Shown one piece after another: positions 7,581 to 31,689 of a stretch of 42,988 nucleotides of DNA; the first letter of the stretch is position 1, and each line of letters begins with the position of its first letter. The stretch lies in NCBI GenBank assembly GCA_020435205.1, contig JAGQZY010000012.1, positions 1-42,988 of the forward strand. The letters run 5' to 3'. A program made the translations under genes and the position numbers. The stretch comes from Bdellovibrionales bacterium. GTDB lineage: Bacteria; Bdellovibrionota; Bdellovibrionia; Bdellovibrionales; JAGQZY01. Under the pieces are notes generated by a model, which saw only the letters and a program-made list of their open reading frames with translations, did not search any database and had not been told where the DNA came from.

Positions 7581-7669
7581 GATTTCTCCTTTACTCCTGG
7601 AGGACGGTTCAAAGCCTATGCCGCCTTTGTGGCCAAACTAGGCCCCCTTGACCTCTGGAGAGGGGTTTT

Positions 7670-7747: not shown

Positions 7748-7760
7748 TGAGGAGAAACCT

Positions 7761-8327: not shown

Positions 8328-8333
8328 AAAAGC

Positions 8334-8362
8334 ATGACAAGCCTCCCTTCGGATGCTATACG
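8334..8362 (+). promoter_or_regulatory. Predicted sigma-70-type promoter for kdsB-pyrG-kdsD
   Basis: ATGACA at 8334-8339 and TATACG at 8357-8362 are separated by 17 bases, which predicts a transcript start near 8369, 14 bases before the kdsB ATG. This position also argues against the in-frame ATG at 8353, which would lie upstream of the transcript. Confidence 0.5.
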
Positions 8363-8382
8363 TCATTGGTTTTAGGAGAGTG

Positions 8383-9123
8383 ATGGCCGAAGTTCTTGCA
8401 GTGATCCCAGTGCGCTTCGGGGCCCAAAGATTTCCGGGCAAACCCCTGGCGACCATACTCGGTAAACCCATGATCCAGTGGGTGGTTGAAGGGGTGTCTC
8501 AAAGTCAAAAAATCAAAAAAATCATTGTGGCCACCGACGACCAGCGCATTGCGCAGACCTGTGCTGATTTTGATGTCGAAGTGGTCATGACGGACTCCGA
8601 GCTTCCCTCGGGCAGTGACCGAGTTTACCAAGCCATCAAAGATCATCCCGAGGAGCTGATCCTCAACATTCAGGGGGACGAACCTCTGATCGATGGCTCC
8701 GTCATTGATACCATGGCTGACTATATGACCAGCCACCAGGACTGGGAGATGCTCACTCTCGGTCATGCCATGGACGAAGAGGGATTAAACAGTTTTAATA
8801 CTGCCAAGATTGTTCTGAATAAAAATAGCGAAGCTATTTACTTCAGCCGTTTTCCCATTCCTTATTCCCGAGGCAAAGCGGTGGCCCCTGTGGAGGCCTG
8901 TTTAAGACATATTGGTATATACGGATACAAAAAACAGTTTCTCAAATCCTTTTGTGAAAGTGAACCTCAGCTCATGGAAAAAATGGAAGGGCTTGAGCAG
9001 TTGCGAGCTCTGTATATGGGGGCAAGAATTCCTGTATTAAAAGTTGATTATAAGAGTTGGGGAGTGGATACTCCTGATGATTTACCAATTGTTGAAGCTT
9101 TATTAAGGAAGAAATATGGCTAA
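8383..9123 (+). CDS. kdsB: CMP-KDO synthetase (3-deoxy-manno-octulosonate cytidylyltransferase)
   Basis: This 246-residue enzyme activates KDO with CTP to CMP-KDO, the donor for the LPS inner core, in the cytoplasm. The nucleotide-binding N-terminus reads [17 protein letters not shown]. The NIQGDEPLI motif, the [10 protein letters not shown] region, LEQLRAL and VDTPDDL are all typical of KdsB. The ATG at 8383 has AGGAG just upstream and gives the usual length; an ATG ten codons earlier does not. The gene overlaps pyrG, whose product makes its CTP substrate, by eight bases. A single transcript with kdsD is likely. Confidence 0.97.
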
Positions 9124-10855
9124 AAAGAAAAAAGCGAAAGCTAAAAAATCCGCGCGAGTTTCTCGCAGTAAACCTCTTACACAAAAATTTATTTTTGTAA
9201 CTGGCGGAGTTGTTTCTTCCATTGGTAAGGGTTTGTCAGCAGCCAGTCTTGCCACCTTGCTTGAGGCGCGCGGTTTTAAAGTGACTCTTATGAAGTGTGA
9301 CCCTTACATCAACGTTGATCCAGGAACTATGTCTCCTTTTCAGCATGGAGAAGTTTTTGTCACTGATGATGGGGCGGAAACGGATTTGGATTTAGGCCAT
9401 TATGAGCGCTTTACCAGCATTTCTTTGAATAAGTCCAATAGCACCACGGCTGGCCAAATCTATGAAAGCGTGATTCGTAAAGAACGCCGTGGTGATTATC
9501 TTGGTGGAACCGTGCAAGTCATTCCCCATATCACTGACGAAATTAAATCGAGAATTTTTGAAGCAGCTCAAGGTTCGGAGATCACTATTGTTGAGATTGG
9601 TGGAACGATTGGTGACATTGAAGGCCTTCCCTTCATTGAAGCCATTCGTCAAATGCGTGTGGATTTAGGTGTAGAGAACACCCTTTATGTACATGTGACT
9701 TATGTTCCTTACATAAAAGCCGCTGGTGAATTAAAAAGTAAACCCACTCAGCACTCGGTGAAGGCTTTGCGTGAGGTGGGAATTCAACCTGATATTTTAA
9801 TTTGTCGAAGCGAGCATCACATCCCCCATGAAACTAAATCTAAAATTGGATTGTTTTGCAGTATTCGTCCAGAAAACGTGATTGCAGCTTTCGATGCTCA
9901 AACGATATATGAAGTTCCTCTCATGCTTCATGATGAAGGTTTCGATGCTAAAGTTGTGGACTTGTTACAACTAGAAAATTCCACACCTCACCTGGAAAAT
10001 TGGACAAAAATGGTTAACACCATTAAAAGTCCAAGTCGTAAGGTGAATATTGGTATTGTCGGCAAGTATGTTAACCTCAAAGAGAGCTATAAATCGTTAA
10101 ATGAAGCCCTTGTTCACGGTGGTATCGCTTGTGATTCGCGAGTGGAGTTGACCTACATTAACTCGGAGAAGTTAAACAGTAAAAACGCCGTCAAAATGCT
10201 AGCGGGTGTGGATGGAATTCTCGTGCCGGGAGGATTTGGCGAGCGTGGGGCTGAGGGTAAAATTGAAGCTATACAATATGCTCGAGAAAATAATATTCCT
10301 TACTTTGGAATCTGCTTTGGGATGCAGTTGGCCGCTATCGAGTTTGCTCGCAATGTTTGCGGATTAAAAAATGCTTCGAGCCGCGAGTTTGAGGATAAAG
10401 TAAAAGGCCAAAGAAACTTTGTCATTGACCTTATGGAAGACCAAAAAGGAGTTTCCAACAAAGGTGGAACGATGCGCCTGGGTTCTTACTCTTGTGAATT
10501 AACTAAGGGAAGTGTAGCGAAAAAGTCCTACAAAAAATCAACTATTCTTGAGCGCCATCGCCATCGCTTTGAGTTCAACAATAAATTCCGCGGTATTTTT
10601 GAGAAAAATGGAATGGTTTTGTCGGGAATTTGCAAAGAAAGAGACCTGGTCGAAATCATAGAGATTCCTGATCATTTGTTTTTTGTTGGAGTTCAGTTTC
10701 ATCCGGAATTTAAATCCAAGCCACTTTCGCCCCATCCCTTGTTCACCAGCTTTGTTAAGGCCTCTTTAAAAAATCGAGAGATCCATGCCGGGGATAACAA
10801 ATCGGAGAAGAGCACCGGCGAAACCATTTCTGTCAATGAAGCTATGACCATGTAG
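9116..10855 (+). CDS. pyrG: CTP synthase
   Basis: This 579-residue enzyme converts UTP, glutamine and ATP to CTP. The synthetase domain begins [20 protein letters not shown] and has the metal-binding [14 protein letters not shown] segment. The class I glutamine amidotransferase domain has GGFGERG, nucleophile Cys400 in GICFGMQ, and the His/Glu pair in GVQFHPEF. Compared with E. coli PyrG (545 residues) it has a Lys-rich N-terminal extension of about 24 residues ([19 protein letters not shown]) and about 25-30 extra C-terminal residues. The ATG lies inside the end of kdsB, with AAGGAAG upstream. It supplies CTP for CMP-KDO and for nucleic acids. Confidence 0.98.
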
Positions 10856-10861
10856 GAAGCT

Positions 10862-11833
10862 ATGTCTACTGATATCCAAGAAGCCAAAAGAGTTCTCGAT
10901 ATTGAATCTCAATCCATTCTTGATCTTAAGGATCGTATTGATGATCGCTTTATTAAAGCGATAGAAATTATTATGGCTGGCCAAGCTAAAGTTGTAGTCG
11001 CTGGTATGGGTAAATCAGGCCATATTGGTCGGAAACTGGCGGCGACTTTAAGTTCCACTGGCACTCCCTCTTTGTTTTTACATCCTGCAGAGAGCTCCCA
11101 TGGAGATTTAGGGGTGGTCACGTCAGAGGATGTACTGATTGTGATCAGTTATGGTGGGGGTTCTCAGGAATTGCAGGACTTGATTGCCTATGCCTCTCGC
11201 AAAGGAGTCCCCATGATTGCCATGACCGGCAATATGGATAGTGAGCTAGCGAGAAGCGCCAACGTTGTTCTTGATATCAGTGTGAAAGAAGAAGCTTGTC
11301 CATTGAAGTTGGCGCCAACCTCGAGTTCGACGGCGACCTTAGCTTTGTGCGATGCTTTAGCTATGGCTTTATTGAAGCGAAGAGGGTTCAAAGAAGAGGA
11401 CTTTGCCGAGTTTCATCCTGGTGGAAAACTTGGACGCAGGCTTCTTACCCGCGTGCATGATCTTATGCACGACAATGGGGGGCTTCCTATTGTTGAGCTA
11501 GGGTCATCGATGGTGAGTGTCGTGGCTACCATGACAGGTGGGGACGTGCGTGGAGTCGCCGCGGTGGTAGACAAGCAAGGCTTTTTAAAAGGGGTGGTCA
11601 CCGATGGAGACCTTCGTCGTCACTTGGAAAAAAACAAAAATCCGCTGGAAGCTAAAGTCGAAGAGCTCATGTCCACAACTCCGAAAACGATTGATGCTGA
11701 TGAGTTAGCGGCTAAAGCTCTATTCATCATGGAACAGTTTTCTATTCAGTCCCTCTTTGTGGTGGACTCTGCCAGCAAAAAACCAGTAGGACTTATCCAT
11801 CTCCAAGATTTGATCCGAGCCCAAATCCGCTAA
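10862..11833 (+). CDS. kdsD: Arabinose-5-phosphate isomerase, KpsF/GutQ family
   Basis: This 323-residue enzyme interconverts ribulose-5-phosphate and arabinose-5-phosphate, the first step of KDO synthesis. The SIS domain (about 35-175) shows GMGKSGHIGRKLAATLSSTG and ESSHGDLG. Two CBS domains fill the C-terminus (about 200-320; VVTDGDLRR and VGLIHLQDL). The sugar-phosphate loop, usually SNSGET or SNSGES, reads SYGGGSQE here, an unusual variant. It starts six bases after the pyrG stop, with AGGA overlapping that stop codon. kdsA, often found between pyrG and kdsD, is absent. Confidence 0.93.
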   Translation: MSTDIQEAKRVLDIESQSILDLKDRIDDRFIKAIEIIMAGQAKVVVAGMGKSGHIGRKLAATLSSTGTPSLFLHPAESSHGDLGVVTSEDVLIVISYGGGSQELQDLIAYASRKGVPMIAMTGNMDSELARSANVVLDISVKEEACPLKLAPTSSSTATLALCDALAMALLKRRGFKEEDFAEFHPGGKLGRRLLTRVHDLMHDNGGLPIVELGSSMVSVVATMTGGDVRGVAAVVDKQGFLKGVVTDGDLRRHLEKNKNPLEAKVEELMSTTPKTIDADELAAKALFIMEQFSIQSLFVVDSASKKPVGLIHLQDLIRAQIR

Positions 11834-11892
11834 ATAAACCCATACCAAAGTCAGAGTTTGTCTTTTTTAAAAAGCAGGCGCACAATTTTTTT

Positions 11893-12396
11893 ATGGATGT
11901 GCATACTGAGAAATTGAAACATATCAAAATGTTAGTCATGGATGTGGATGGCATCATGACGGACACTCGAATAATGCTGGACCCCAATGGGGAATGGAAA
12001 AGATTTTTTTCTGTACGTGATGGGATCGGAATTAATCTATTACGTAAGCATGGGTATAAGACTGCCGTTATTACGGGTGCCCATTCCGAGGATGTGCAGA
12101 AACGAATGCAACATCTTAAAATTGATTACTTTTATGAAAACAAACTGGACAAATTGCCAGCCTATGAAGAGTTGAAAAATGAGTCTGGGTTCATGGACAA
12201 AGAGATCTGCTATATCGGTGACGATGTCTTTGATATTCCATTGTTAAAGCTGGTTGGGTTTTCAGCAACTGTTCCCGAAGCGGTTGAAGAAGTGAAAAAG
12301 GAATGTGATTATATAACCAAGAGACATGGTGGCTTTGGCGCGGTTCGTGATCTGTGCCAAATCATTTTGGAAAATGGCTATCATCATGAGGGGTAA
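11893..12396 (+). CDS. kdsC: KDO-8-phosphate phosphatase
   Basis: This 167-residue HAD-superfamily C0-type phosphatase removes phosphate from KDO-8-phosphate, giving KDO for KdsB. The catalytic motif MDVDGIMTD gives nucleophile Asp17 and acid/base Asp19. Motif II is ITGAHS, the conserved Lys lies in NKLDKLPAY, and the metal site is IGDDVFD. Length and N-terminus match E. coli KdsC without its longer leader. The ribosome binding site is poor and there are 59 bases of T-rich leader (11834-11892), so it may have weak or separate expression. The next gene begins three bases after its stop. Confidence 0.94.
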   Translation: MDVHTEKLKHIKMLVMDVDGIMTDTRIMLDPNGEWKRFFSVRDGIGINLLRKHGYKTAVITGAHSEDVQKRMQHLKIDYFYENKLDKLPAYEELKNESGFMDKEICYIGDDVFDIPLLKLVGFSATVPEAVEEVKKECDYITKRHGGFGAVRDLCQIILENGYHHEG

Positions 12397-12399
12397 ACA

Positions 12400-13152
12400 A
12401 TGAAATTATTGGCAGCTTTGATCATCTTTTTAATCGGATTCCAGGCCTTGGCGGTCACCATTGAATTCCCAGAAGAAGAATTGGCTCGTGAATCGGTTTT
12501 GCCCATCTTTGACAATACGGTTGCTGTGAAGTCTCGCAGAGTAACGACTGCAAAGCGCATTGAGCTTGGAATCGGAACGGGATTTGCTATGAATGAGCCC
12601 TTTTTCAATACCATGCGCTTTGGTGGTCATGTGGCCTATCATTTTAATGAGACCCATGGGGTTGTTTTTATGATGCAAATGTACCAGGGTGGATTGAGTA
12701 AGAATGGGGAGACTTTGGCTGGTACTGATTTGGTTGATGACAGCCCTGATAGCGTACAGTCCTACATCCGTATGAATTTTGCTCCAGAATCCAAGTACCA
12801 CGGATTTTTAAATTATCAAATTACCCCCTATTACGGAAAAATCTCGGTCTTTAAGGACTTCGTTATGAATCTCAGTCTTTATGGTCTGCTTGGAGTTGGT
12901 GGCGTGGATATCGGTGGTGAGTTTTCCCCGGGCCTCAATGTTGGTATTGGTCAAAAGTTCTATTTTTCTAACAATTGGGGGATCCGAGCAGATCTCTCTA
13001 TGTTAGCTTACCAAGGCATTAACTACTTCGCAGCTTCTGACGGTAGTGCATCGCCTTTAGAAAATGCCACTTCTGCTAAAGAGGTGAGCGAATTTGAAAA
13101 ACGTATGAACTATGACATGCAACTTTCTATTGCATTGATCATCTTGATCTAA
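12400..13152 (+). CDS. Outer-membrane beta-barrel protein, candidate GltA-like component
   Basis: This protein has 250 residues with signal peptide LLAALIIFLIGFQALA. The mature part has alternating amphipathic strands (RIELGIGTGFAMNEPFF, GGHVAYHFNETHGVVFMMQ, GVGGVDIGGEFSPGLNVGIG) typical of small 8- to 10-stranded barrels. It resembles the outer-membrane proteins that accompany gliding genes in Myxococcus. The start has GAGGGG six bases upstream and lies three bases after kdsC, so it may be co-transcribed with kdsC. A likely terminator follows. The second barrel gene and a TPR gene come next, an order like gltA-gltB-gltC. The barrel call is firm; the GltA link rests on gene order. Confidence 0.7.
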   Translation: MKLLAALIIFLIGFQALAVTIEFPEEELARESVLPIFDNTVAVKSRRVTTAKRIELGIGTGFAMNEPFFNTMRFGGHVAYHFNETHGVVFMMQMYQGGLSKNGETLAGTDLVDDSPDSVQSYIRMNFAPESKYHGFLNYQITPYYGKISVFKDFVMNLSLYGLLGVGGVDIGGEFSPGLNVGIGQKFYFSNNWGIRADLSMLAYQGINYFAASDGSASPLENATSAKEVSEFEKRMNYDMQLSIALIILI

Positions 13153-13201
13153 GTCTAAACCTTGTAACATAACAGCTGAATCCTGGTTGGTTTTTTGTCA
13201 A

Positions 13202-13228
13202 TGGACCAACTCGGGTCCAGTTATTTTT
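13202..13228 (+). terminator. Candidate intrinsic terminator after the first barrel gene
   Basis: A stem TGGACC/GGTCCA (13202-13207 with 13214-13219) and six-base loop AACTCG is followed by GTTATTTTT. It would end transcription from the kds region before the promoter-like TATAAT at 13258. Confidence 0.45.
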
Positions 13229-13257
13229 GATAAGTCTACAAATTCCTTAAACTTTTC

Positions 13258-13263
13258 TATAAT
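13258..13263 (+). promoter_or_regulatory. Perfect -10 box ahead of the Glt-like operon
   Basis: TATAAT at 13258-13263 lies 32 bases before the ATG at 13296. A consensus -35 is not seen at 16-18 bases upstream (best is CTACAA), so activator dependence is possible. It would start the run of genes 13296-23882, which have no other obvious promoter gap. Confidence 0.4.
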
Positions 13264-13295
13264 CTGTTAGCAGACTGACGACTTTGGAACGACAT

Positions 13296-14108
13296 ATGAA
13301 GAAACTATTTATTTTACTCCTTCTTGTTTATTCGCCAACGCTCTTTGCTCAAGATGCAAAGGATGATGCATCCATTGATGAGATCGAAGGGTTGTTCAAT
13401 GAAACTGAGGAAGAAGATGTGCGCAGTGCTCGCCCGAGTGCTCCTGAGAAAGCAGAATCGGAAGGGCCAAAGGTTAAAGACCTAGCGGATTTAAGTAAGC
13501 TAGAAACTTTTGACGATATTGCTGTTATTCAAAGACGCTATCTTCCCAAGACAGGTCGATTTGAACTCTATATAGCTGGCGGGACAAATCTTAATGACTC
13601 CTTCTTTGTGGGGAATGGAATTAACCTTCGTTTTGGTTACTATCTCAGTGAACGTTGGGGAATCGAAGGAATTTATAGCTATATTCAGAATGACAATCGC
13701 GATGTTACTAATGAGCTGCTCAATCGTGGTGTCAATACTGAAGGAATGGTCGCAACGGACCAGTATATGGGTGCAGATATTAAATGGACCCCCATTTATG
13801 GAAAGTATGCCTACTTCAATGAAAAAATCATCCCTTTTGATCTCTATTTTTCAGCGGGTATGGGGATGACCACACCTAAACTTGGTGACTCAGCAGCAAA
13901 CACTAGCTTCTCACCAGATCAAGCCTTAACTTATCGAGTGGGTACGGGGCAAATTTTTGCCTTAACAAAATGGATGGCCTTTCGCTGGGATCTTTCCTGG
14001 CACTTCTTTAGCGCGAAGTCGACGATTAATTCTTCTGAAAGCCTACACAATAACTTGTTTCTCAATGTTGGCTTGAGTTTCTTCTTTCCGGAGGCGAAGT
14101 ACCGATGA
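13296..14108 (+). CDS. Outer-membrane beta-barrel protein, candidate GltB-like component
   Basis: This protein has 270 residues. I use the ATG at 13296, which gives signal peptide KKLFILLLLVYSPTLFAQ; an in-frame TTG four codons earlier seems less likely. A charged linker (about 20-90) precedes a barrel with repeated amphipathic strands (RFELYIAGGTNLNDSFF, NLRFGYYLSERWGIEGIYSY) and a C-terminal strand LFLNVGLSFFFP. This matches the general outline of the Myxococcus-type outer-membrane barrel family. Its stop overlaps the next start (ATGA), so it is coupled to the TPR gene. Assignment as GltB-like is by context. Confidence 0.72.
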   Translation: MKKLFILLLLVYSPTLFAQDAKDDASIDEIEGLFNETEEEDVRSARPSAPEKAESEGPKVKDLADLSKLETFDDIAVIQRRYLPKTGRFELYIAGGTNLNDSFFVGNGINLRFGYYLSERWGIEGIYSYIQNDNRDVTNELLNRGVNTEGMVATDQYMGADIKWTPIYGKYAYFNEKIIPFDLYFSAGMGMTTPKLGDSAANTSFSPDQALTYRVGTGQIFALTKWMAFRWDLSWHFFSAKSTINSSESLHNNLFLNVGLSFFFPEAKYR

Positions 14109-15760
14109 GGAAAATATCTATACTCCTAATTCCTATTTTCTTGTTTACGAGCATCGCCCAGGCCAACAGCCGTGAGTTCGGCACTTCTTTAGATGAAGAG
14201 ATTCAAAGTCAGCTAGACAACCCGCAGTGGTTGATTGCTCAAAACAAAAAACGAAGCAAAAAAAGATCCTCAAGTCGGTCAAAGGGTGTGGATCTTTTGA
14301 CTAAAGCAAAAAAATTAGCGGTTGATAAGCGTTACGAGGAATCCTCTAAACTTCTTTTTTCTCTCACTCGTAGTTCTCGCTATCGTAGAGACTCTTCGCA
14401 AATCAAATATATCTTAGGTCTTATGCTCATGGAAATGGGACTGTACCAAGTATCTTCTTTTGTTTTTTATGATGTCATTAATGGAGAAGTGCGGTCTGGT
14501 AAAACCACGCGTTACCTTCGCCAGTCTCTTGGTAAGCTTTCTTTTTTAAGTAATGCTCTGGATAGTGATGTTCTTCTAAAATATACAATCTCGAAAATTC
14601 GCGTGAAAGATTTTCCAAGAGAACAAAAAGATCTATTTTATTTTCGGTTAGGTGAACTTCGTTTAAAAGAGAAGCGCTATTTGCAAGCTGCGAAGATTTT
14701 TTCACGCGTCGAGCAAGAATCGCCAGTTTATTCGCGGGCTTTATATAAACAAGGCTTGGCCTATGCTGAGGCCAGGCAGGGTGCTAAGGCCTTAGCTTCA
14801 TTTGATGAGCTATATAATATTAGTAAAAATAAGCCAATTACTGATACCAATCGTGTGAATGCTATTTTGGCAATGGCTCGAGTTTATTATCAAAATAAGA
14901 AATGGGATAAAGCTATCGAATATTATCGCAATATCCCAAGAGATACATGGCAGTGGCACGATTCTCTTTTTGAGCAGAGTTGGGCTATGTTGCGTTCTGG
15001 CCGCTATTTTCGATCCGCTTTAAGCAATTTTCATACCCTGCATTCAGCCTACTACGAGGACATTTATGCTCCTGAATCACTTTTGCTAAGAGGTATGGTT
15101 TATCTCTTTATTTGTCGATATGACGAAATGGGTAAAGTCCTTAACCTCTTTGATCGCGTTTACAAGCCGGTTGAAATGAAAATCAGAAGATTTGTTGGCA
15201 GTGCTTCAACGGCGAGTTACCTTGACGAGATCATCAAAGGAGAGGCCAACTATCAGGCAGGACGCAGGCAGAAGGAACCTCCATATAATACTCGCCTACC
15301 AAAGCTTGTTTTGAACAAGGTGATTAATCAGCCTAATATTCGCAGAAATCTCAACTATATTGAGGCTCTTTCCAAAGAAAAACAGCGTATGGAGAACCTT
15401 TCTACAGACTGGAGAGCTTCCGGAATTGGTCAATATGCTAAAAGAGTCATCGATAAGCGTATTGTTTCAACTAAGAATGTGGTAGCGAAGCAAGCAAAAA
15501 ATTATTTGCGAGGCTTGAAGTCAGAACTTCGAGACTTTTTTGAGCAAAGTGACTTTTTAAAGTTTGAAATGATTAGTGGTAAAAAAGAAGCTGTTCGCAA
15601 AAAGATTGCAGGAAAAGGAATCGAGAAGAAGCAAATTACAGATGAAGAATCTCGAGATTTCTTTATTGGTAATGGATATGAGTACTGGCCATACCAAGGT
15701 GAGTACTGGCTCGATGAGCTAGGAAACTACCACTACGTTGGGGTTCAAGCTTGTGAATAG
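14105..15760 (+). CDS. Exported TPR protein, candidate GltC-like
   Basis: This 551-residue protein has signal peptide SILLIPIFLFTSIAQA. A basic segment (KKRSKKRSSSRSK) precedes TPR helices from about residue 55 to 330 (for example RYLQAAKIFSRVEQESP, KWDKAIEYYRNIPRDTW). The C-terminus ends in an aromatic motif, YEYWPYQGEYWLDELGNY, ending in a Cys near the tail. A periplasmic TPR protein encoded right after two barrel proteins matches the gltA-gltB-gltC arrangement of Myxococcus, where GltC helps join the outer-membrane part to the machine. The start overlaps the upstream stop as ATGA. The TPR and export calls are firm; the GltC identity is inferred. Confidence 0.75.
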   Translation: MRKISILLIPIFLFTSIAQANSREFGTSLDEEIQSQLDNPQWLIAQNKKRSKKRSSSRSKGVDLLTKAKKLAVDKRYEESSKLLFSLTRSSRYRRDSSQIKYILGLMLMEMGLYQVSSFVFYDVINGEVRSGKTTRYLRQSLGKLSFLSNALDSDVLLKYTISKIRVKDFPREQKDLFYFRLGELRLKEKRYLQAAKIFSRVEQESPVYSRALYKQGLAYAEARQGAKALASFDELYNISKNKPITDTNRVNAILAMARVYYQNKKWDKAIEYYRNIPRDTWQWHDSLFEQSWAMLRSGRYFRSALSNFHTLHSAYYEDIYAPESLLLRGMVYLFICRYDEMGKVLNLFDRVYKPVEMKIRRFVGSASTASYLDEIIKGEANYQAGRRQKEPPYNTRLPKLVLNKVINQPNIRRNLNYIEALSKEKQRMENLSTDWRASGIGQYAKRVIDKRIVSTKNVVAKQAKNYLRGLKSELRDFFEQSDFLKFEMISGKKEAVRKKIAGKGIEKKQITDEESRDFFIGNGYEYWPYQGEYWLDELGNYHYVGVQACE

Positions 15761-15770
15761 AGGGGACGCT

Positions 15771-18700
15771 ATGAAAAAGGGCTTGTGGAGTCTGATTATT
15801 CTTTCGATGGTTATGTTTGCAGGCGACCAGTCTCTGGCTCAGTCGAATCGGAAACGTAAACAAATGGGTAACTTGACCCTGCAGAAATTGAAGTCAAATA
15901 TTCCACCATCGCAAGGTGTGGAAAAAAAGAAAGTCAGAGCTCGAAATGTGGGTTTAATTAAACCCCCGAGTTCTTCAAAATTTCAGGTTTTTGATGGTGA
16001 TCCTTTGAAGGCCGAATATAACCGCCTTGTTGATGAGGAAATTAAGCGTCTCTATAAATTGTCTCGTCAATATAAGCGAAGTCGTAGTCGCGGTGAGATT
16101 TGGCTTCGCTTAGGAGAAAGATATAAAGAAAAGGCACAGATCATTGATTTCCAGCTTCAAGATAAGTACGACAGGAAACTCAAAGAATATCATGAGGGAA
16201 AAACCAAAGTAAAACCACGCCCACCATCACGAAGTGAAGTTCGCGATTTTCATAAGCGAGCGATCCGTCTTTACGAGTGGTTTATTCGAGATTTTCCAAA
16301 AGATCGCAAAGTGCCTCAGGCCCTGTATGCTCTCGGCTATAATAACTTTGAGATTGGTAACCTCAAAAAAGGTGAAAAATATTACTTAGAACTAACCAAG
16401 AAATACCCTAAAAGTGTTTATGTCAGTGAATCGCATTTTGCCCTTGGTGAGTATTATTTTGAAAAAGAGGATTGGAAACATGCTCTTCCTCAATACTTAA
16501 AAGTAGTGAAGCGCCGACGCTCTCGTCTTTTTACATTTGCTCTGTATAAGGCTTCGTGGTGTTATTTTCGGTTAGGTAAATACCAGACAGCTTTGAAAAC
16601 TCTAGTACAAGTTATTAAGGTGAGTCGTGGTGATGACTCTGGCGAGTCTGTCGAGGGAACTCGCACTTTGGATAAATTGCGTCTCGCCAAGGAAGCTTTA
16701 GGTGATTACGTAACTTTCTATGAACAGACTGGGCGTTATAAGCAAGCTTATGATGACTTTATGGATATTACCCGCTCAGAAAAGCGCACTGTTGAAATGA
16801 TCGAACAATTAGGCTATCGCTATAGTTACAGTGGAAATCTAACGGCCTCGGTCTATCTATTTAAACAGCTCATTGCTTTAAATCCGAGTGCCCCCAAAGC
16901 GGCCAAGTATCAACATCAAATCGTACAGGACTTTCAGTCTACAGGACGTGTTAAGGAGTTTCGTAAAGAACTTTCCGTTTGGTTGGATCAGTTTGGGTCC
17001 ACGAGTGCGTGGGCCGAAGCTAATAAAGGTGATCCTAAAGTCATCAAAGAAAACTTTGATCTGCAGGAAAGCTCACTACGAAATCACACTTTGCAGCTTC
17101 ACCAGCAAGCTCTCAATGCTCGCACAAAATACTCTAAGCAATTGGCTGCAGGTTCTTACAAGATGTATCTCACTTATTTTAAAGGTGCTGCTAATTATGC
17201 AGAAATGAGGTTCTTTTATGGTGAACTTCTCTATGACCTTCAAGATTATGAAAAAGCCGCAGATCAATATGAAGCTGTAGCTTTAGCCGACCGTAAAGGT
17301 AAATACTTTGAAAAATCTGTGACTAACAATGTGCTTGCTAGAGAAAAGGCCATTCCAAACAATAAGCAAATGGAGGCTATGCGATCTAATCTCAAGGACA
17401 AGCTTTCGCCCATTCCTTTGAGCCCTCCAGTCAAAAAATTTGAACGCGCTTGTTTAATATATTTAAAATTTTTTCCTAACGGAGATAAGTCCTTAGAGAT
17501 TCAGCGCCGTCTAGGAACTATTTACTATTCACATAACCAATTTGATTCCTCACTCAGTATTTTGCGTAAGATTGTGAAGCAAAATCCGCGCTCAAAGGAT
17601 GCCATTATAGCTGCAGAAATTATCTTAGATATTCATCGATTAAGAAATAATCTTGATCAGTATCAAGATGAGGGTAAAGCCTTTCTTGCCAATCCAACGA
17701 TCGCTAGTTCTGCTTTCGGAAAAGATTTAAAAGTGAACCTACAGAAAGCTAAATTTTTGGTAGCGGATGATTACTCCAAGAAAGGTAATACTTTAAAGGC
17801 TGCTCAATCCTTTGAAGCCTTTGCAGCTGCGAACCCGGCATCCAGTCAGGCCCATGCCGCCCTTTTTAACTCGGCAGTGAATTTTGACAAGTCAGGATCT
17901 ATATTTGATGCAGTGAGGATGTATAAAAAGGTCATCGCCAAGCCTGGAAAAGGCGCTCAAGCGCAACTCAAGCAAGATGCTCGAAATAGCTTGGCTAAAA
18001 TCTACCAAAATATGGGTCTCCTTAAAGAAGCTGCCGAACAGTATGAGGCCTATGGTCGCAACGCCAAAGGGAATGATGCTATAAACGCCCTATTTAATGC
18101 GGCTGTCTTGTGGGATGCGCTCAATGAGTACCGCAAAGCTTTTAGCACCTACAATGTTTATGCTGGTTTAGCAAAAACCAAAGGTGAGCAGGAAGCCGCT
18201 TGGGCGAAAGCAGAAATGTACCGTCGGCAGAACTTGTATTCGAAAGCCATATACCAGTATGACAAGTTCATTAAGCTAAACTCCCCGGATCTTGAGAAAA
18301 TGATCAAGGCCCATTGGCATATTGCTGACTTTTACACCAAGCTTCGCAGTCATGGAAAAGCCAAGCAGTGGTACGAGAAAGTTGTTCGGATTGTGAATAA
18401 CACCGCTCGCGGTCGTAAGCTCGGAGCAAAGTATGGGGCGCAAGCGGACTTTATATTATCAATGAAATACATTGATGAAATGAAGGCGGTGAGATTGGGA
18501 AGAACAGAAAGCTCAATCACTAAAGGCCTCAATAAAATGAAAGAGCTTCAGAAAGTTTTGATCAAAAAAATGGCAGGAGTGATTAAGTATGACTACGGCC
18601 CGTCTGTGGTTGCGGCCCTCTCGGCTGAAGCGGAATCCTATGAGATCATTGCGATGACTTTTAAGAATATTCCCATCCCTAAGGAGTATGCCCAGGGGAA

Positions 18701-18926
18701 TGTCCTCAAGCAGTTTAAAGAGATGGCTACCACTCAAGAAAAAGAGTTTATTAATAAGGCGATTGGTGGTTACCGTGCGGCCTTTAACAAAGGCATTGCA
18801 TTGAAGGCTTTTGGTCCAGAGATGATCTCCAGTGCTCAAGCCCTGTATCGCCTTGATCCTCAAGGCTTTACCAATGCCGGTGAAATCAACGATGTTGGAG
18901 AAATTCCAGATACTATGGAGTTATAA
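15771..18926 (+). CDS. Giant exported TPR protein, candidate GltD/AgmU-like
   Basis: This protein has 1,051 residues. The ATG at 15771 follows AGAGGGG with five-base spacing and gives signal peptide KKGLWSLIILSMVMFAGDQSLAQ; an earlier in-frame TTG overlaps the previous gene and breaks the signal. TPR or TPR-like helical pairs cover most of the length, for example QALYALGYNNFEIGNLKKGE, EDWKHALPQYLKVVKRRR, DYEKAADQYEAVALADR and GLLKEAAEQYEAYGRN. In Myxococcus, GltD (AgmU) is a large periplasmic TPR protein encoded just before the TPR lipoprotein GltE (AglT), the same order as here. It probably forms a periplasmic scaffold linking motor and outer membrane. Confidence 0.78.
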   Translation: MKKGLWSLIILSMVMFAGDQSLAQSNRKRKQMGNLTLQKLKSNIPPSQGVEKKKVRARNVGLIKPPSSSKFQVFDGDPLKAEYNRLVDEEIKRLYKLSRQYKRSRSRGEIWLRLGERYKEKAQIIDFQLQDKYDRKLKEYHEGKTKVKPRPPSRSEVRDFHKRAIRLYEWFIRDFPKDRKVPQALYALGYNNFEIGNLKKGEKYYLELTKKYPKSVYVSESHFALGEYYFEKEDWKHALPQYLKVVKRRRSRLFTFALYKASWCYFRLGKYQTALKTLVQVIKVSRGDDSGESVEGTRTLDKLRLAKEALGDYVTFYEQTGRYKQAYDDFMDITRSEKRTVEMIEQLGYRYSYSGNLTASVYLFKQLIALNPSAPKAAKYQHQIVQDFQSTGRVKEFRKELSVWLDQFGSTSAWAEANKGDPKVIKENFDLQESSLRNHTLQLHQQALNARTKYSKQLAAGSYKMYLTYFKGAANYAEMRFFYGELLYDLQDYEKAADQYEAVALADRKGKYFEKSVTNNVLAREKAIPNNKQMEAMRSNLKDKLSPIPLSPPVKKFERACLIYLKFFPNGDKSLEIQRRLGTIYYSHNQFDSSLSILRKIVKQNPRSKDAIIAAEIILDIHRLRNNLDQYQDEGKAFLANPTIASSAFGKDLKVNLQKAKFLVADDYSKKGNTLKAAQSFEAFAAANPASSQAHAALFNSAVNFDKSGSIFDAVRMYKKVIAKPGKGAQAQLKQDARNSLAKIYQNMGLLKEAAEQYEAYGRNAKGNDAINALFNAAVLWDALNEYRKAFSTYNVYAGLAKTKGEQEAAWAKAEMYRRQNLYSKAIYQYDKFIKLNSPDLEKMIKAHWHIADFYTKLRSHGKAKQWYEKVVRIVNNTARGRKLGAKYGAQADFILSMKYIDEMKAVRLGRTESSITKGLNKMKELQKVLIKKMAGVIKYDYGPSVVAALSAEAESYEIIAMTFKNIPIPKEYAQGNVLKQFKEMATTQEKEFINKAIGGYRAAFNKGIALKAFGPEMISSAQALYRLDPQGFTNAGEINDVGEIPDTMEL

Positions 18927-18929
18927 TTT

Positions 18930-19781
18930 ATGATGGGTTTAGAAAAAGTGATCAAAGTACTAGCGATTCTGTCTTTCGCCACGGCTCTAGCCTCATGTGC
19001 TTCTAAACCATCGGCGCCTGCAGAAGATGCGGAACAAAAAGCTAGAGAAGAGGTTCAAGCTAATTTAAGTCCAGAGGAAAAGGCAGAGCTCAATAAGCGC
19101 CAACAAGAAGTGGGGGGGTCCCACTCTCAATTGGGTAAGCTCCTAAAAGAAAAGCGTCACCAAGAGTTGCAGCGTGAGGCTTCAAAAATTCTTTCAAAAA
19201 ACCCCTATGACCTCAAAGCACTTTCGGCATTAGGTCTGATGCATATGAACCAAAATCAATTGGGAGCTGCTCGGATCTTTTTTGAAAAAGCTTTGAAAAA
19301 ACATCCAAATGAGGCTGGGCTGTATAACAATATTGGTGTTATTCAGTTGAAAGAAGGGAATCTACAAGATGCCTACTTAAGTTTTAAAAAGGCTTACGGA
19401 ATGGAAAGGCAGAACCCTGTTGTCCAAGCGAATTTAGGAAGTATTTATGTAAAGTATATGGATTATGTTGAAGCCGAGCCCTTGGTCGAGGATGCCTATA
19501 GCACTATGACTGATAATGTGATCGTTGCAAACAACTATGCCATCGTCTTGCGTACCCAGGGCCAGTATGAAGAGGCGCAAAAGGTTTACGAAAAAGCATT
19601 GTCTTTGAATTCTCGAAATATCTCGACCAACTTAAATTATGCTATCTTGTTGGTAGATTATATGAAAAAATATGATAAAGCTCGGCAGATAGTTAATAAG
19701 ATTGAGTTTTTAAACCCAACTGAAAAGTACGTGCTGAGAAAAGTACAGGAATTGCAACGTAAGGTGACTTCAGCAAAATGA
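18930..19781 (+). CDS. TPR lipoprotein, candidate GltE/AglT-like
   Basis: This 283-residue lipoprotein has signal LAILSFATALASC, with lipidated Cys23 followed by Ala (outer-membrane sorting by the usual rule). A charged linker is followed by about five TPRs from residue 85 on (NPYDLKALSALGLMHMNQNQ, NNIGVIQLKEGNLQDAYLSF, NYAIVLRTQGQYEEAQKVYE). GltE (AglT) of Myxococcus is a TPR lipoprotein in the same position relative to GltD and GltG. It starts three bases after the large TPR gene, and its stop overlaps the next start (ATGA). Another in-frame ATG follows directly, so the start may shift by one codon. Confidence 0.8.
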   Translation: MMGLEKVIKVLAILSFATALASCASKPSAPAEDAEQKAREEVQANLSPEEKAELNKRQQEVGGSHSQLGKLLKEKRHQELQREASKILSKNPYDLKALSALGLMHMNQNQLGAARIFFEKALKKHPNEAGLYNNIGVIQLKEGNLQDAYLSFKKAYGMERQNPVVQANLGSIYVKYMDYVEAEPLVEDAYSTMTDNVIVANNYAIVLRTQGQYEEAQKVYEKALSLNSRNISTNLNYAILLVDYMKKYDKARQIVNKIEFLNPTEKYVLRKVQELQRKVTSAK

Positions 19782-20065
19782 TTCTATTCCGATTGATCTC
19801 TATTTTAATCGTCTTTATGTTAGTGGGCATCAGTCCGTCTTTTGCACAAAGTGGCAAGTCAAAAAGAACCACAATTAATTTTGAAGACCAACTGATTAAG
19901 GGACAAAATCAGAAGCCCGATCTTCTATATTTGTTGCAAAAAAAGCAGCTCAATTACAAGCGTTTGATCAGACTGAGAGAAGACTTTTTGCCAGAAATGC
20001 GCGAGTCGGCCAACGAAGTTGAAGAAAGTCGTCGAGTTCGGTTGAAGAATCCAAAGAAGGAGTAG
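19778..20065 (+). CDS. Small exported protein, candidate GltF/CglF-like
   Basis: This 95-residue protein has signal peptide LFRLISILIVFMLVGISPSFAQ. The mature 72 residues contain INFEDQLIKGQNQKPDLLYL and a basic helix with NYKRLIRLREDFLPEMRESA. Small periplasmic proteins with an F-E-D, K-P-D, R-L-R-E-x-F pattern occur beside AglT-type genes in gliding bacteria; from memory this recalls CglF/GltF of Myxococcus, but I cannot confirm it here. It starts inside the upstream stop (ATGA) and lies three bases ahead of the FHA/TonB gene. Tight coupling implies a role in the same complex. Confidence 0.6.
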   Translation: MILFRLISILIVFMLVGISPSFAQSGKSKRTTINFEDQLIKGQNQKPDLLYLLQKKQLNYKRLIRLREDFLPEMRESANEVEESRRVRLKNPKKE

Positions 20066-20068
20066 GTT

Positions 20069-22087
20069 TTGGCCAAGGTAGTGGTTCTGAAAATTTACAG
20101 AAGTGGAGAGTTGGTCGCTGAAAAGCAACTCAACCAGGATCATATCGTGTTGGGTTCATCAGCAGAAGAAGCCCATGTGACATTGCCAGGAGATGCTTCA
20201 CCTATTCACGCCTCGATCGAAAAGCGCGGTGATAAGTACATTCTTTGTGATGTTGGCTCTGAGAAGGGCACCTTTAAAAATCAAGATAAGATCTTAGAAG
20301 CTGAAATAGTCAGTGGGGATAAGATTGGGGCCGGAGAATTTACAATTGAGTTTTATTTGCAGGAGGGCCCTGAGGAGTCGGTGGCGACCTCATCTGCACA
20401 AGTCGAGCGCCGCAGTTTTCCAGATGAGGTCACTCAACCCATTAACCTCGAGCAACCCGTAGCAGTCAGTGCTGCCGCGGCGGCCTCTGCGGGTGGTTCT
20501 TTGCAAAGTGTTTCGTCATCGGTAAGTGGCTTTAAAAATGCCACCTTCTCGCCTAAAAGTAGCCATAGTGATGTTGGTGAAATCGTTCGACCAACCAAGG
20601 GCACCCTCGTTGAAGTTTTGGTAGCCTGGCAAGAAAGAGTGATCTCTGTTTATCACTTCTCTGAAGCCGGTACCATTATGGTAGGAACCCACCCCAGTTG
20701 TGATGTTATGGTTCCTCTATTGGCTGCTGGAGTGGATAGAGCTCCCCTTATTCAATTGAATCAGCAAGTTCAGATTATTTTACACCCAGGTATGCAAGGA
20801 ACTTTGGTCACTGAAGGTGGGGCGGTTCCCTTTAATCAGCTAGCTAGTATGGGACGTGGGAGTGGTCAGTTCGTTAACCTTCAACAAGGTGAAATGGCTC
20901 GACTCCAAATGGGTGAGGGTGTTGAGGTTATTGTCCGCTATTCTTCGCAAGCGCCAAAACCGGTAGTGATTCCATTTATTGATCTTTCCAGCAATGGGTT
21001 CTTGGCAGTTTTGCTTGCCATTGTATTGACCGGAATTTTGTCTTTATATGTGGCTCTGAATAAACTTGATAAGCTCGATAAAGATAATGAAGATGAGTAT
21101 CGTACGGCTTTGATCATTACCAATCCACCAAAACCACCACCTCAGGTGAAGTTGCCACCACCAAAAATTGAGAAAAAGCAGGTTAAGAAGATTGTTAAAA
21201 AGCCACCTCCACCCAAAAAGGTCAAAAAGATCAAGGTGGATATGAAGAAAAAGGAACCTAAGAAGGTCACTCGTACAACCGTTAAAAAGAAAAAAGGTGG
21301 CGGAGCTGGCGGGGGCCGCGCTAAAGGAAGTGCTAACGACAAGACGGCTAAGTCAATGAGACCCAAAGAGGGTAAGAAAACCAATCAGGTCACATCAGTC
21401 AAGCAGGGTGGCTCGGTTAAAACGGCGAAAAAAGAAGGCGCTCAAATGCAGAGCGAAAGAAAGCTGAAAAATTCAGGCATCTTTTCAGCCTTCGGTAGCG
21501 GAGGCCGCAATGACCGTATTGACCAATCCTACAGTGGGTCCGGTGAGCTTGCGGGTCTTGCTGATCAAGCGACGGGAACAGCCGGTTTTGGTGAAGATCG
21601 CCCTGGAAATGGTTTGGGATCAAAATTTAAAGATACTGGAGCTGGCGGCACTGGAAAATCCAACGTGGGTGTTTCCGGAATCTCCAAAGGAACCGGACTT
21701 GGCGCTGGTGGCTTCGGTGAAAGTGGCCTTGGCGATAGAAAGGCCGTGTCGATCATTCCCGGTGGCGGCGGCGAAGAATTTAGTGGCCAGATTGATAAAG
21801 AAGGAATCCGAAAAGTATTTTTTGATAATGCTCGCGCGATTCGGTCTTGCTATGAGCGTGAATTGATTCGTAACCCTAATCTGACTGGTAAGCTAATGTT
21901 AAACTTTGACATTGGCGAGCATGGTCGCGTGGTGGGATCTCCTAAAATTAATTGGGGAGACTCAACGATGAAGAGTCGTGATGTTGCGAGTTGTGTATTA
22001 GGTCGTTTAAGAACATGGAGGTTCCCTGAGCCTCCAAGAAATAATGTTGTGAATGTTATTTATCCATTAGCCTTTGCGGCTAAATGA
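20069..22087 (+). CDS. FHA-like, single-TM, TonB-like protein, candidate GltG/AgmX-like
   Basis: This is a 672-residue protein. The TTG start has AAGGAG six bases upstream. Residues 1-105 form an FHA-like fold (IVLGSSAEEAHVTLPGDA, SPIHASIEKRG, SEKGTFKN), but the conserved Arg and the Asn-Gly turn are missing. A second FHA-like region lies around 190-300 (TIMVGTHPSCDVMVPL). One transmembrane helix spans 311-331. The periplasmic part has a Pro/Lys-rich segment (345-405) as in TonB, a Gly-rich stretch (410-570) and a C-terminal domain (575-672; FFDNARAIRSCYERELIRNP, RLRTWRFPEPP) of the AgmX/PglI TonB-like type. In Myxococcus, GltG and GltJ carry motor force across the periplasm. The gene lies just before the motor genes. 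Confidence 0.85.
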   Translation: MAKVVVLKIYRSGELVAEKQLNQDHIVLGSSAEEAHVTLPGDASPIHASIEKRGDKYILCDVGSEKGTFKNQDKILEAEIVSGDKIGAGEFTIEFYLQEGPEESVATSSAQVERRSFPDEVTQPINLEQPVAVSAAAAASAGGSLQSVSSSVSGFKNATFSPKSSHSDVGEIVRPTKGTLVEVLVAWQERVISVYHFSEAGTIMVGTHPSCDVMVPLLAAGVDRAPLIQLNQQVQIILHPGMQGTLVTEGGAVPFNQLASMGRGSGQFVNLQQGEMARLQMGEGVEVIVRYSSQAPKPVVIPFIDLSSNGFLAVLLAIVLTGILSLYVALNKLDKLDKDNEDEYRTALIITNPPKPPPQVKLPPPKIEKKQVKKIVKKPPPPKKVKKIKVDMKKKEPKKVTRTTVKKKKGGGAGGGRAKGSANDKTAKSMRPKEGKKTNQVTSVKQGGSVKTAKKEGAQMQSERKLKNSGIFSAFGSGGRNDRIDQSYSGSGELAGLADQATGTAGFGEDRPGNGLGSKFKDTGAGGTGKSNVGVSGISKGTGLGAGGFGESGLGDRKAVSIIPGGGGEEFSGQIDKEGIRKVFFDNARAIRSCYERELIRNPNLTGKLMLNFDIGEHGRVVGSPKINWGDSTMKSRDVASCVLGRLRTWRFPEPPRNNVVNVIYPLAFAAK

Positions 22088-22103
22088 TAATGGGAGGTAG
22101 AAA

Positions 22104-22790
22104 GTGGACGAGACCACAGGAGCAGTGACGGAAGTCATGACAAATGAAGAGACGCAAAACTTTGTTTTACGTGCATTCGCAGAGGGCGGGACCGCGATGT
22201 ATTTTATCGCTGGCGTTGGAGTTTTGGCCCTCATCGTGATTGCAAAACAAATTTTGGCCCTTAAAGAGGCAGGGGTGGACAAGAAGGATTTCAATGAGCA
22301 TATCTTTGGAATGATCCTTCGTGGAGACATTCAGCAAGCCATCGCTTATTGCGATAGCAAGCCATCGCCTCTTACAAACACATTAAAATCGGGCTTAGTG
22401 CAAGTGATGAACAAGCGCCCAGATGAAGAAGTGCAAGTAGCTATGGATGCAGCCGTTCTTCGCGACACACCTCGCGTAGAAGGTTGGGTGAGCTTCCTAG
22501 CTGTTTTTGGTAACCTTTCGACTCTTATTGGTCTTGTGGGAACGATCATCGGTATGATCACCGCTTTCCGTGGTGTGTCCTCAGCCGATGACGCAAAGAA
22601 AGCCGAACTTCTTTCAAAAGGTATTTCTGAAGCCCTGAACTGTACGGCTTTTGGTCTTATGGTGGCGATTCTATCGATCGCTGCTTATGGTTATTTTCAG
22701 CATAGAATTAACATTATTCTTAATGAAATGACCGAAAGTAGCATGAGCCTTATTAATTTAGTGGCTTCCAACCGTGATAAAATAAAGTAA
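22104..22790 (+). CDS. TolQ/ExbB/MotA-family motor subunit, candidate AglR-like
   Basis: This is a 228-residue inner-membrane proton-channel subunit. Three transmembrane helices lie near 32-53 (MYFIAGVGVLALIVIAKQIL), 130-158 (FLAVFGNLSTLIGLVGTIIG) and 175-197 (NCTAFGLMVAILSIAAYGYF). The TLIGLVGTIIGMITAF motif is the TolQ/ExbB signature. The GTG start has GGGAGG six bases upstream. With the two TolR-like proteins downstream it forms a set like AglR-AglQ-AglS, the proton-driven motor of Myxococcus gliding. TolQ or ExbB roles are less likely because no tolA, tolB or pal follows and the neighbours are Glt-like. Confidence 0.9.
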   Translation: MDETTGAVTEVMTNEETQNFVLRAFAEGGTAMYFIAGVGVLALIVIAKQILALKEAGVDKKDFNEHIFGMILRGDIQQAIAYCDSKPSPLTNTLKSGLVQVMNKRPDEEVQVAMDAAVLRDTPRVEGWVSFLAVFGNLSTLIGLVGTIIGMITAFRGVSSADDAKKAELLSKGISEALNCTAFGLMVAILSIAAYGYFQHRINIILNEMTESSMSLINLVASNRDKIK

Positions 22791-22812
22791 GTAAAGGACT
22801 TGAGGTTAGAAC

Positions 22813-23286
22813 ATGGCACATGTAGAGGATAGTTCAGGTAATCGAAGGCAGTCCAATGTTGAATTAAACTTGGTTCCTTTTATCGATTTGATGAGTGTAC
22901 TCATCACCTTTCTACTCATTACAGCTGTGTGGACTCAGGTTTCTATGATTAAGCTCGGAAGCTCAATCTATGGTAAGCAAACGACTGATGAGACTCCGCC
23001 ACCACCTCCCAGGGCGGATGTCCCCTTTCGATTGGACGTCAAAGAAGCGGGTTTCCGAATCATTATCGGTACGGCTCAGCATGTAATACCTAAAGTGAAT
23101 AACGAATATGATAAGAATGCTCTACTTGAAAAGCTTAAGCAGATTAAGCAAGCTTATCCTGACAAAGTCGATTGTGTGATCACTGTGGAAGAACAGTTGA
23201 AGTATGACTATTTAATTCAAGGAATGGACATGTTGTTGCAGGCCGGTTTTCCAGCTGTGTCAGTAGCGACAGGAGGAGCTGAGTAA
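22813..23286 (+). CDS. ExbD/TolR-family motor subunit 1, candidate AglQ/AglS-like
   Basis: This 157-residue protein has a short cytoplasmic tail, one transmembrane helix (about 20-42) and a periplasmic domain. The motif ELNLVPFIDLMSVLITFLL carries the conserved proton-carrying Asp25. A proline-rich linker (ETPPPPPRADVPF) precedes a typical ExbD C-terminal fold (VDCVITVEEQLKYDYLIQ). The stop overlaps the next start (TAATG). Presence of two distinct TolR-like genes after one TolQ-like gene fits the AglRQS pattern better than plain ExbBD. Confidence 0.9.
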   Translation: MAHVEDSSGNRRQSNVELNLVPFIDLMSVLITFLLITAVWTQVSMIKLGSSIYGKQTTDETPPPPPRADVPFRLDVKEAGFRIIIGTAQHVIPKVNNEYDKNALLEKLKQIKQAYPDKVDCVITVEEQLKYDYLIQGMDMLLQAGFPAVSVATGGAE

Positions 23287-23882
23287 TGGCGATCTATGCA
23301 CCTGGCAAACGCTCGAGACATGGTAAGGCGGGTGGCAGTAAACGCAGCACCGTGGTTGTGTTATCGCTAACGGCGATGGTGGATATGTTCACAGTGTTAG
23401 CTGTTTTCCTCCTACAAAATTATCGAGTGGAAGAAATTCAGTTGAAGAAATCTGTTCCTCTCCCAGAAGCATCTGCCGTCAAAAAATTGAAGCCAGCTCA
23501 TGTGGTTGTGGTCACTAAGGATGAAATTTTCTTGGATGAAGAGCCTGTTGCTAAATTTGAAGTTGTTAAAGAACAAGAGCACTGGTTGATTGTTCCTTTA
23601 CAAGAAGGGCTAGCCAAAGCTATCGAAGAAAAGAAAAAAGAAATGGAATCGGGTCTCAAGAATGCCATTGCTGAAACTTTTAAGAAAGATGGCGAGCCCA
23701 TGACTGAAGAGGAGCGCGAAGAAATGCGCGCAAAGAAATACGCTTACGGTCGAGTCACTATGCAAGCCGATAAAGATATCGACATGCTAACGGTGAAAAA
23801 AATCATGTATACGCTGACAGAAGCTGGCGCTTCATTGATCAACTTTGCCGTTGTTCCCAAAGAGAACGCTCCCAAAGAATAA
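23286..23882 (+). CDS. ExbD/TolR-family motor subunit 2, candidate AglS/AglQ-like
   Basis: This 198-residue protein has a basic N-terminus and one transmembrane helix (22-43; VVVLSLTAMVDMFTVLAVFLL), with the key Asp retained at position 33. The periplasmic part is longer than in the first subunit because of an extra charged helical insert around 105-150 (KAIEEKKKEMESGLKN, MTEEEREEMRAKKYAYG). The C-terminus (DIDMLTVKKIMYTLTEAGASLINFAVV) is the usual ExbD ending. GGAGGAG lies upstream of the start. It ends one base before the convergent CBS gene. Confidence 0.88.
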   Translation: MAIYAPGKRSRHGKAGGSKRSTVVVLSLTAMVDMFTVLAVFLLQNYRVEEIQLKKSVPLPEASAVKKLKPAHVVVVTKDEIFLDEEPVAKFEVVKEQEHWLIVPLQEGLAKAIEEKKKEMESGLKNAIAETFKKDGEPMTEEEREEMRAKKYAYGRVTMQADKDIDMLTVKKIMYTLTEAGASLINFAVVPKENAPKE

Positions 23883-30714: not shown

Positions 30715-31689
30715 ATGTGGAAGTGGATATTAGCAACGATTGCATTCTTTTTTATTGTCATTGAACTGGTGTTCTTTGCTCCCAGCAGTGGCGATCGCGA
30801 GACCTCTTTGGCCATGCAACAACAGCACAAAGAAGATCATGTCGACCCCGTGGATCATGAACAGGTGCTTTCGGGGGGTCATCTCGTCGAGTCCCAGGGT
30901 GAAACTAAACAATGGGAGCTTGAGTCTGAGGTGGCTCGCAAAAAACGAGGGAGTGAGGAATGGACTCTCGACAAGGTTAAGGTGAAGTTCTTTGGTGAGA
31001 ACCAAGTCTTTTACCGAGCCGTGGGTGAGAAAGGATTTGTCACCGATAACCAGAAGTCGTTAAAAATCGAGGGGGATGTAGAGATCGTTTCGTCCAACCA
31101 ATATGTCATTAATAGCGAAGTGATTTACTATCTGACGGAAAGCCGAACGATCGAGGGCCCAAAGCCTGTGAAGATGCAAGGACCACCCGAAGCCAACGGC
31201 AAGGGGGGGCCATTATTCATGGAAGCGGAACGTTTTGACGCTGATCTTAGTACCAACGTTATCAACCTTTACGACAATGTACGAGGTCGTAAAACAATGA
31301 GTGATAATCGCAATATGAAAATTGCAAGTCATAAAGCTATTTTTAGTGGCCAGTCGAATTATGCTCTTTTTAAAGAGGATGTGGTAATTCATGTGGACTC
31401 TATGACCATCACTGGTCCACGGGCTAAATTTATCTACAAAGATGGAGCCCTCTACTCGCTGTTAATCAATGGTGGGGTCAAAATTAAGGATATTGGCAAA
31501 TGGGGAAAGGCCGGCGAAGCCGAGGTCTTTTTTCAGGAAGATAAGTACGTGTTTCGTGATTCACCCCTTGTTGTGCAGGGTGAGGACGAGTTGATTGGAG
31601 ACGAGATTATCGTCTACGATGGGGGAGAGCGAGTACAAGTTGTGAAAGCGAAGGCCAAGTACCGCGCTAACCAAGAGGAGAGCCCCTAG
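30715..31689 (+). CDS. lptC: LPS transport protein LptC with LptA-like extension
   Basis: This 324-residue protein has an N-terminal anchor (residues 2-22; WKWILATIAFFFIVIELVFF) and then beta-jellyroll repeats of the OstA/LptA/LptC type (VFYRAVGEKGFVTDNQKSLK, VEIVSSNQYVINSEVIYYL, ITGPRAKFIYKDGALYSLLI). E. coli LptC is about 190 residues; the extra C-terminal half looks like an LptA-type OstA domain (VVQGEDELIGDEIIVYD). It bridges LPS from the LptBFG transporter toward the outer membrane. Its last base overlaps the lptB GTG. No separate lptA lies between it and lptB, so this may cover both roles. Confidence 0.8.
   Translation: MWKWILATIAFFFIVIELVFFAPSSGDRETSLAMQQQHKEDHVDPVDHEQVLSGGHLVESQGETKQWELESEVARKKRGSEEWTLDKVKVKFFGENQVFYRAVGEKGFVTDNQKSLKIEGDVEIVSSNQYVINSEVIYYLTESRTIEGPKPVKMQGPPEANGKGGPLFMEAERFDADLSTNVINLYDNVRGRKTMSDNRNMKIASHKAIFSGQSNYALFKEDVVIHVDSMTITGPRAKFIYKDGALYSLLINGGVKIKDIGKWGKAGEAEVFFQEDKYVFRDSPLVVQGEDELIGDEIIVYDGGERVQVVKAKAKYRANQEESP

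Follow-up and report, generated by a model that had tools for sequence, protein, structure and literature searches.

Introduction

The Glt/Agl machinery of Myxococcus xanthus (gltA-K/aglRQS) is distributed over three separate loci, includes GltH-K and other partners, and is under MglA/MglB control. The closest homologues of its glt genes are the nfs genes (nfsA-H), Glt paralogues that serve the spore coat during sporulation and lie together in one genomic region (Luciano et al., 2011, PMC3169522). Bdellovibrio bacteriovorus HD100 carries four related operons, Bd0412-0420, Bd0828-0838, Bd1473-1483, and Bd2368-2377 (PMC2797640). The second of these was reported to form one locus that contains many homologues of M. 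xanthus gliding genes but lacks gltH, I, J, and K; the same study regarded the conserved core as being of unknown function and inferred that its genes were ancestrally linked, with the linkage later lost in Myxococcus (Luciano et al., 2011, PMC3169522). Here, we compare these systems with a cluster from a Bdellovibrionales bacterium (assembly GCA_020435205.1), in which ten open reading frames (ORFs) on the plus strand fill positions 12400-23882 of contig JAGQZY010000012.1; the window is the whole stretch analysed, 42,988 nucleotides.

We consider it probable that the ten genes encode the core Glt/Agl machine of the entire class Bdellovibrionia, orthologous to Bd0828-Bd0838, and that the machine uses proton flow to transmit force to the outer membrane, where the force would serve adhesion and contact with surfaces or prey. 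The machine is of a known kind, and this orthologue in B. bacteriovorus was described in 2011; the new elements are the class-wide retention of the cluster and its embedding in a lipopolysaccharide (LPS) operon. The initial annotation of the window had recognized a Glt/Agl-type trans-envelope motor lacking GltH-K in the window, which stands, and had proposed that the parts are fused here into a single minimal operon, which does not, given the ancestral linkage inferred by Luciano et al. and the earlier description of Bd0828-0838.

Results

The window cluster matches the HD100 (G031) locus at 0.777-0.788 Mb gene by gene and in the same order (tblastn). Agl-type motors are found in HD100 at 0.398, 0.787, 1.402, and 2.282 Mb, positions that fit the number and order of the four published operons (PMC2797640). 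In an AglR tree, the window protein, the HD100 gene at 0.787 Mb, and the orthologues of the order form one clade (support 98/98), with the other three HD100 Agl motors in separate clades and the genome's TolQ apart in a clade of its own (100/100). On these sequence comparisons, the cluster is the orthologue of Bd0828-Bd0838, with which it shares all ten genes and their order, an AglR that is 65% identical, a kdsC gene 3 bp upstream, and a TTG start codon for gltG. The two loci differ downstream, where lptC follows aglS by ~0.1 kb in HD100, whereas a 6.8 kb segment separates them in the window. A split gltG in HD100, suspected when only ATG was allowed as a start, was ruled out, as the full FHA-GltG ORF begins with TTG.

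Family searches agree with the parts list of the initial annotation: two barrels, three tetratricopeptide repeat (TPR) proteins including a lipoprotein, a small exported protein, a protein with an FHA domain, a transmembrane (TM) helix and a TonB-like end, and one TolQ-like and two TolR-like subunits. The outer-membrane barrels are encoded by omp1 (12400..13152; TIGR04565, E=1.5e-25; syntenic in 52/53 loci), of GltB/GltA type, and omp2 (13296..14108; TIGR04565, E=7.1e-36; PF13505), of GltA/GltB type. They score 90 and 124 bits against OMP_myx_plus (TIGR04565; cut-off 60), and the GltA and GltB identities are left unassigned between them. The start of omp2 is probably the ATG at 13296; the program ORF begins at TTG 13284. 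Next come a GltC homologue (14105..15760; NF033756, E=1.2e-53), a periplasmic TPR protein in which the C-terminal motif [FY]xGEYWxDE is conserved, and a long GltD-like TPR protein with a signal peptide (15771..18926; program ORF from TTG 15738). The latter has matches to TPR Pfams and none to a GltD model, and it is assigned solely on its architecture and its place ahead of gltE, which matches the arrangement in M. xanthus (PMC3169522, Table 1). The GltE homologue is a TPR lipoprotein with the lipobox LASC, read from the sequence (18930..19781; NF033758, E=2.5e-15), and is followed by a 95-residue exported homologue of GltF (19778..20065; NF033764, E=3.9e-13), which is the same protein as CglF (PMC4488436). 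The GltG homologue (20069..22087; NF033760, E=3.9e-57; myxo_SS_tail, NF033768, 87 bits against a cut-off of 40) combines an FHA domain, a TM helix, and a TonB-like C-terminal domain; against the PDB, it matched only FHA regulators (GarA) and no Glt relative.

The motor genes close the cluster. AglR (22104..22790; PF01618, E=1.1e-27) belongs to the TolQ/ExbB/MotA family, with PDB matches to TolQ and ExbB. AglQ (22813..23286; PF02472, E=2.7e-17) and AglS (23286..23882; PF02472, E=4.7e-10) are TolR/ExbD homologues that retain the TM aspartate of the proton site, Asp25 and Asp33 respectively, as do all 18 of the 18 orthologues checked.

The comparison with hidden Markov models proposed in the initial annotation matched GltC, GltE, CglF, GltG, the barrels, and the motor at the family level. 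Scores fall below the NCBIfam myxobacterial equivalog cut-offs for GltC (183 bits against 450), GltE (56/225), CglF (49/90), and GltG (194/650), so these proteins are family members and not equivalogs; because the models were built for myxobacterial equivalogs, low scores bar the name but not membership of the wider family. All seven components of the Group B core of Luciano et al. (GltC, D, E, and G with AglR, Q, and S) are present and linked, and the additions of the expanded Bdellovibrio core (GltA, B, and F) are represented by the two barrels and GltF inside the cluster. The window shares with the M. xanthus G1, G2, and M1 loci the same component types (barrels, GltC to GltG, and AglR, AglQ, and AglS) and the same order within each block, and its gene order corresponds to G2 (B-A-C), the G1 core (D-E-F-G), and M1 (R-Q-S) set end to end (PMC3169522). 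Its placement relative to AglRQS or Nfs follows Luciano et al. (PMC3169522).

The tight gene order with ATGA and TAATG overlaps that had been reported was confirmed at the junctions (ATGA at omp2/gltC and gltE/gltF, TAATG at aglQ/aglS), and the remaining intergenic gaps measure 3-22 bp, but 143 bp lie between the barrel genes. Within this gap lie a hairpin resembling a terminator (13202-13219) and, at 13235-13263, the strongest sigma-70-like match of the region, in which promoter-like matches overall are at chance level. Given the hairpin and the promoter-like match, the ten genes may not all share a single transcript.

Among 107 Bdellovibrionia genomes at least 90% complete, 105 have a strong GltC match (E <= 1e-100). 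A cluster comparison, also suggested in the initial annotation, recovered the same ten-gene order in 52 of the 53 independent loci with enough flank, and nine of the genes were detected in the 53rd; the linkage is far beyond chance. Even two genomes of 1.2-1.3 Mb have kept the cluster. No strong GltC match was found in G152 and G175, the latter a fragmented assembly. Loss of the cluster from G152 was considered and is not claimed, because rpoN, its neighbour in the operon, is missing there as well and a gap in the assembly would be an equally likely cause. Beyond Bdellovibrionia, the phylum holds only distant GltC relatives, and the best 80 loci of the GltC scan are all of Bdellovibrionota type. 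GltD and GltE form a single ORF, without the GltE lipoprotein signal, in G029, G008, and G035 (L059, 8739-12635; L061, 8689-12522; L071, 6201-9902); this fusion in three families supports the two proteins working together. A Bdellovibrionia-type GltC is also present in a contig titled as a Streptomyces griseus metagenome-assembled genome (L150, CALQIT020000007.1), likely a misnamed bin.

The flanks of the cluster, where the initial annotation had missed both kdsC 3 bp upstream and lptC-lptB-rpoN on the same strand downstream, place it among genes for LPS. Upstream on the plus strand lie a kdsB-type cytidylyltransferase (8353..9123; PF02348, E=5.8e-55; upstream in 44/56 loci), pyrG for CTP synthase (9116..10855; from the sequence; upstream in 45/56 loci), the SIS-CBS protein KdsD, for synthesis of the LPS sugar 3-deoxy-D-manno-octulosonic acid (Kdo; 10862..11833; PF01380, PF00571), and the HAD phosphatase KdsC (11893..12396; PF08282). 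Downstream by 6.8 kb on the same strand are an lptC-lptA fusion for LPS export, found from HD100 LptC (30715..31689; PF06835, E=2.1e-13; PF03968), the ATPase gene lptB between lptC and rpoN (31689..32411; PF00005, E=3.4e-37), and rpoN for sigma-54 (32427..33848; PF04552, PF04963, PF00309). In Escherichia coli, the order is kdsD-kdsC-lptC-lptA-lptB-rpoN; in HD100, it is kdsC, the ten Glt/Agl genes, the lptC-lptA fusion, lptB, and rpoN. By tblastn, kdsC or kdsD lies upstream on the same strand in 30 of 33 genomes; lptC, lptB, or rpoN lies downstream on the same strand, again in 30; and both flanks are present in 28. The aglS-lptC distance, from tblastn ends, is ~0-160 bp in most Bdellovibrio-type genomes. 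No Glt gene was seen in the ~13 kb upstream of the lptB-rpoN locus in 10 genomes of other classes, one of which (G201) has kdsD ~0.1 kb before lptC. The presence of the cassette within kds-lpt-rpoN in Bdellovibrionia and its absence from the lptB-rpoN locus of other classes suggest that the cassette was inserted once, in the common ancestor of Bdellovibrionia. A limited literature search found no mention of the cassette within the LPS operon.

The genome encodes a second Glt-like cluster of the Bd2368-2377 type (contig C90 [L049], 6267-17647, minus strand). It resembles the window cluster in having a motor and GltD-like, GltC-like, OMP_myx_plus, and GltG-tail proteins, but its gene order differs, its GltG-like protein has no FHA domain, its AglQ-like protein carries Ser where the TM Asp would be expected, and the cluster adjoins a MIDAS-adhesin-like lipoprotein. 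Agl/MglA control genes had been noted as absent from the window; an MglA-type GTPase, which carries S21 like its B. bacteriovorus counterpart, sits elsewhere in the genome (contig C84 [L043], 1396-1995, minus strand) beside recR and ybaB-type genes. MglB was not found to accompany it: the window genome has no Robl_LC7 match, an absence shared with B. bacteriovorus. In three genomes of one genus (G198, G199, and G200), the MglA match contains one in-frame TAA, which could be a recoded stop, a near-end stop, or an artefact. A model search of the whole genome for GltJ found none that was full-length or above cut-off.

Discussion

AglR, AglQ, and AglS would form a TolQR/ExbBD-type motor in the inner membrane. 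That this motor is proton-driven is well supported by analogy, because Asp25 of AglQ and Asp33 of AglS match the proton-site Asp of TolR/ExbD in all orthologues checked. From Myxococcus, where GltA, GltB, and GltC bind one another (PMC4488436), we infer that GltG, with its cytosolic FHA domain, TM helix, and TonB-like end, would carry force across the periplasm with GltF, GltE, GltD, and GltC to the GltA/GltB-type barrels, and we likewise infer the stoichiometry and the same use in the window organism. The force may then serve surface or prey contact and adhesion. A B. bacteriovorus mutant with an insertion in aglS (Bd0838::tn) no longer attached to, killed, or rounded its prey (Duncan et al., 2019, PMC6561027), and the same study lists Bd0836, whose position makes it the likely AglR, as binding c-di-GMP and as necessary for predation.

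Several observations weigh against this reading. Because lptC-lptB-rpoN follow directly after Bd0838, part of the Bd0838::tn phenotype may stem from polar effects. The TM helix of GltG has no TonB SHLS-type His, and coupling may therefore differ from that of TonB. GltJ was not found in the genome, GltH, GltI, and GltK are reported absent from Bdellovibrio, and the source organism is uncultured.

A force machine for contact and adhesion is nevertheless favoured over two live rivals. One, which we regard as possible but doubtful, is that the cluster is the gliding motor itself, as AglRQS-Glt is in Myxococcus, and that prey contact merely follows from gliding. B. bacteriovorus does glide, and Bd0828-0838, whose Agl genes are closest to M. 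xanthus AglRQS, was named the best candidate (PMC3169522); MglA is also present in the window genome. Yet GltH, I, J, and K, which Bdellovibrio lacks, are all essential in M. xanthus, MglA of B. bacteriovorus is needed for invasion and not for gliding (PMC3983030), and a 2026 review calls the Bdellovibrio gliding machinery unidentified (PMC13104615). Moreover, neither of the gliding markers induced on surfaces, bd1480 (part of Bd1473-1483) and bd3099, belongs to Bd0828-0838 (PMC9140294; PMC2797640), no Bd1473-type AglR was seen in the window genome, and the cluster persists in the 1.2-1.3 Mb genomes. The initial annotation had offered gliding, prey or host contact, and adhesion side by side; contact and adhesion now come to the fore, and gliding is one option only, with a second Glt-like cluster in the genome and bd1480 elsewhere.

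The other rival draws on the neighbourhood: the conserved job would be to handle the outer membrane or LPS in concert with the Lpt bridge and the synthesis of Kdo (placing, moving, or anchoring LPS or an LPS-linked polymer), with adhesion defects secondary to an altered surface. The same-strand position between kdsC/kdsD and lptC-lptB-rpoN in most genomes, the short aglS-lptC gaps, and the near-universal occurrence in the class speak for it, and Nfs, a related system, works on a polymer of the spore surface (PMC3858216). Gene neighbourhood does not equal function, however; G009 and G134 have the cluster with lptC-lptB-rpoN elsewhere, and in G010, the kds genes are on the opposite strand. The Bd0838::tn pool was selected on growth medium (PMC6561027), so Bd0838 is not essential for axenic growth. 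We judge this explanation unlikely. We are equally hesitant about a broader proposal, that the cassette entered kdsD-kdsC/lptC-lptA-lptB-rpoN in the ancestor of Bdellovibrionia and was retained throughout the class, down to genomes of 1.2 Mb, since the machine serves the outer membrane in general and cooperates with LPS delivery, prey adhesion and gliding being specialized forms of that role. Far less probable is a system of the TonB or Tol kind that would act in import or in constricting the outer membrane. The motor is homologous to TolQ/ExbB, and HD100 transcriptomics labelled the operons tonB-like/agl (PMC2797640), but the genome has a separate TolQ, the specific matches belong to Glt families, and domain and family searches of the cluster turned up neither TolB nor Pal nor the plug of a TonB-dependent receptor; this possibility is disfavoured.

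At issue is the role of the core outside Myxococcus, and among the four Bdellovibrio copies, the near-universal one in the LPS operon is the first target for deletion. Published transposon phenotypes in the operon may be polar on the LPS-export genes and rpoN, and the LPS-operon context makes a role in LPS testable.

Other genes in the window

Between aglS and lptC, a minus-strand gene (29871-30629) encodes a protein with GYF and PilZ (cyclic di-GMP) domains and a match to the GltJ model at 147-259. At the other end of the region, also on the minus strand (6303-7580), is a gene for an FHA-domain sigma-54 activator, divergent to those for an EngB-like GTPase and kdsB and near the rpoN-containing operon.

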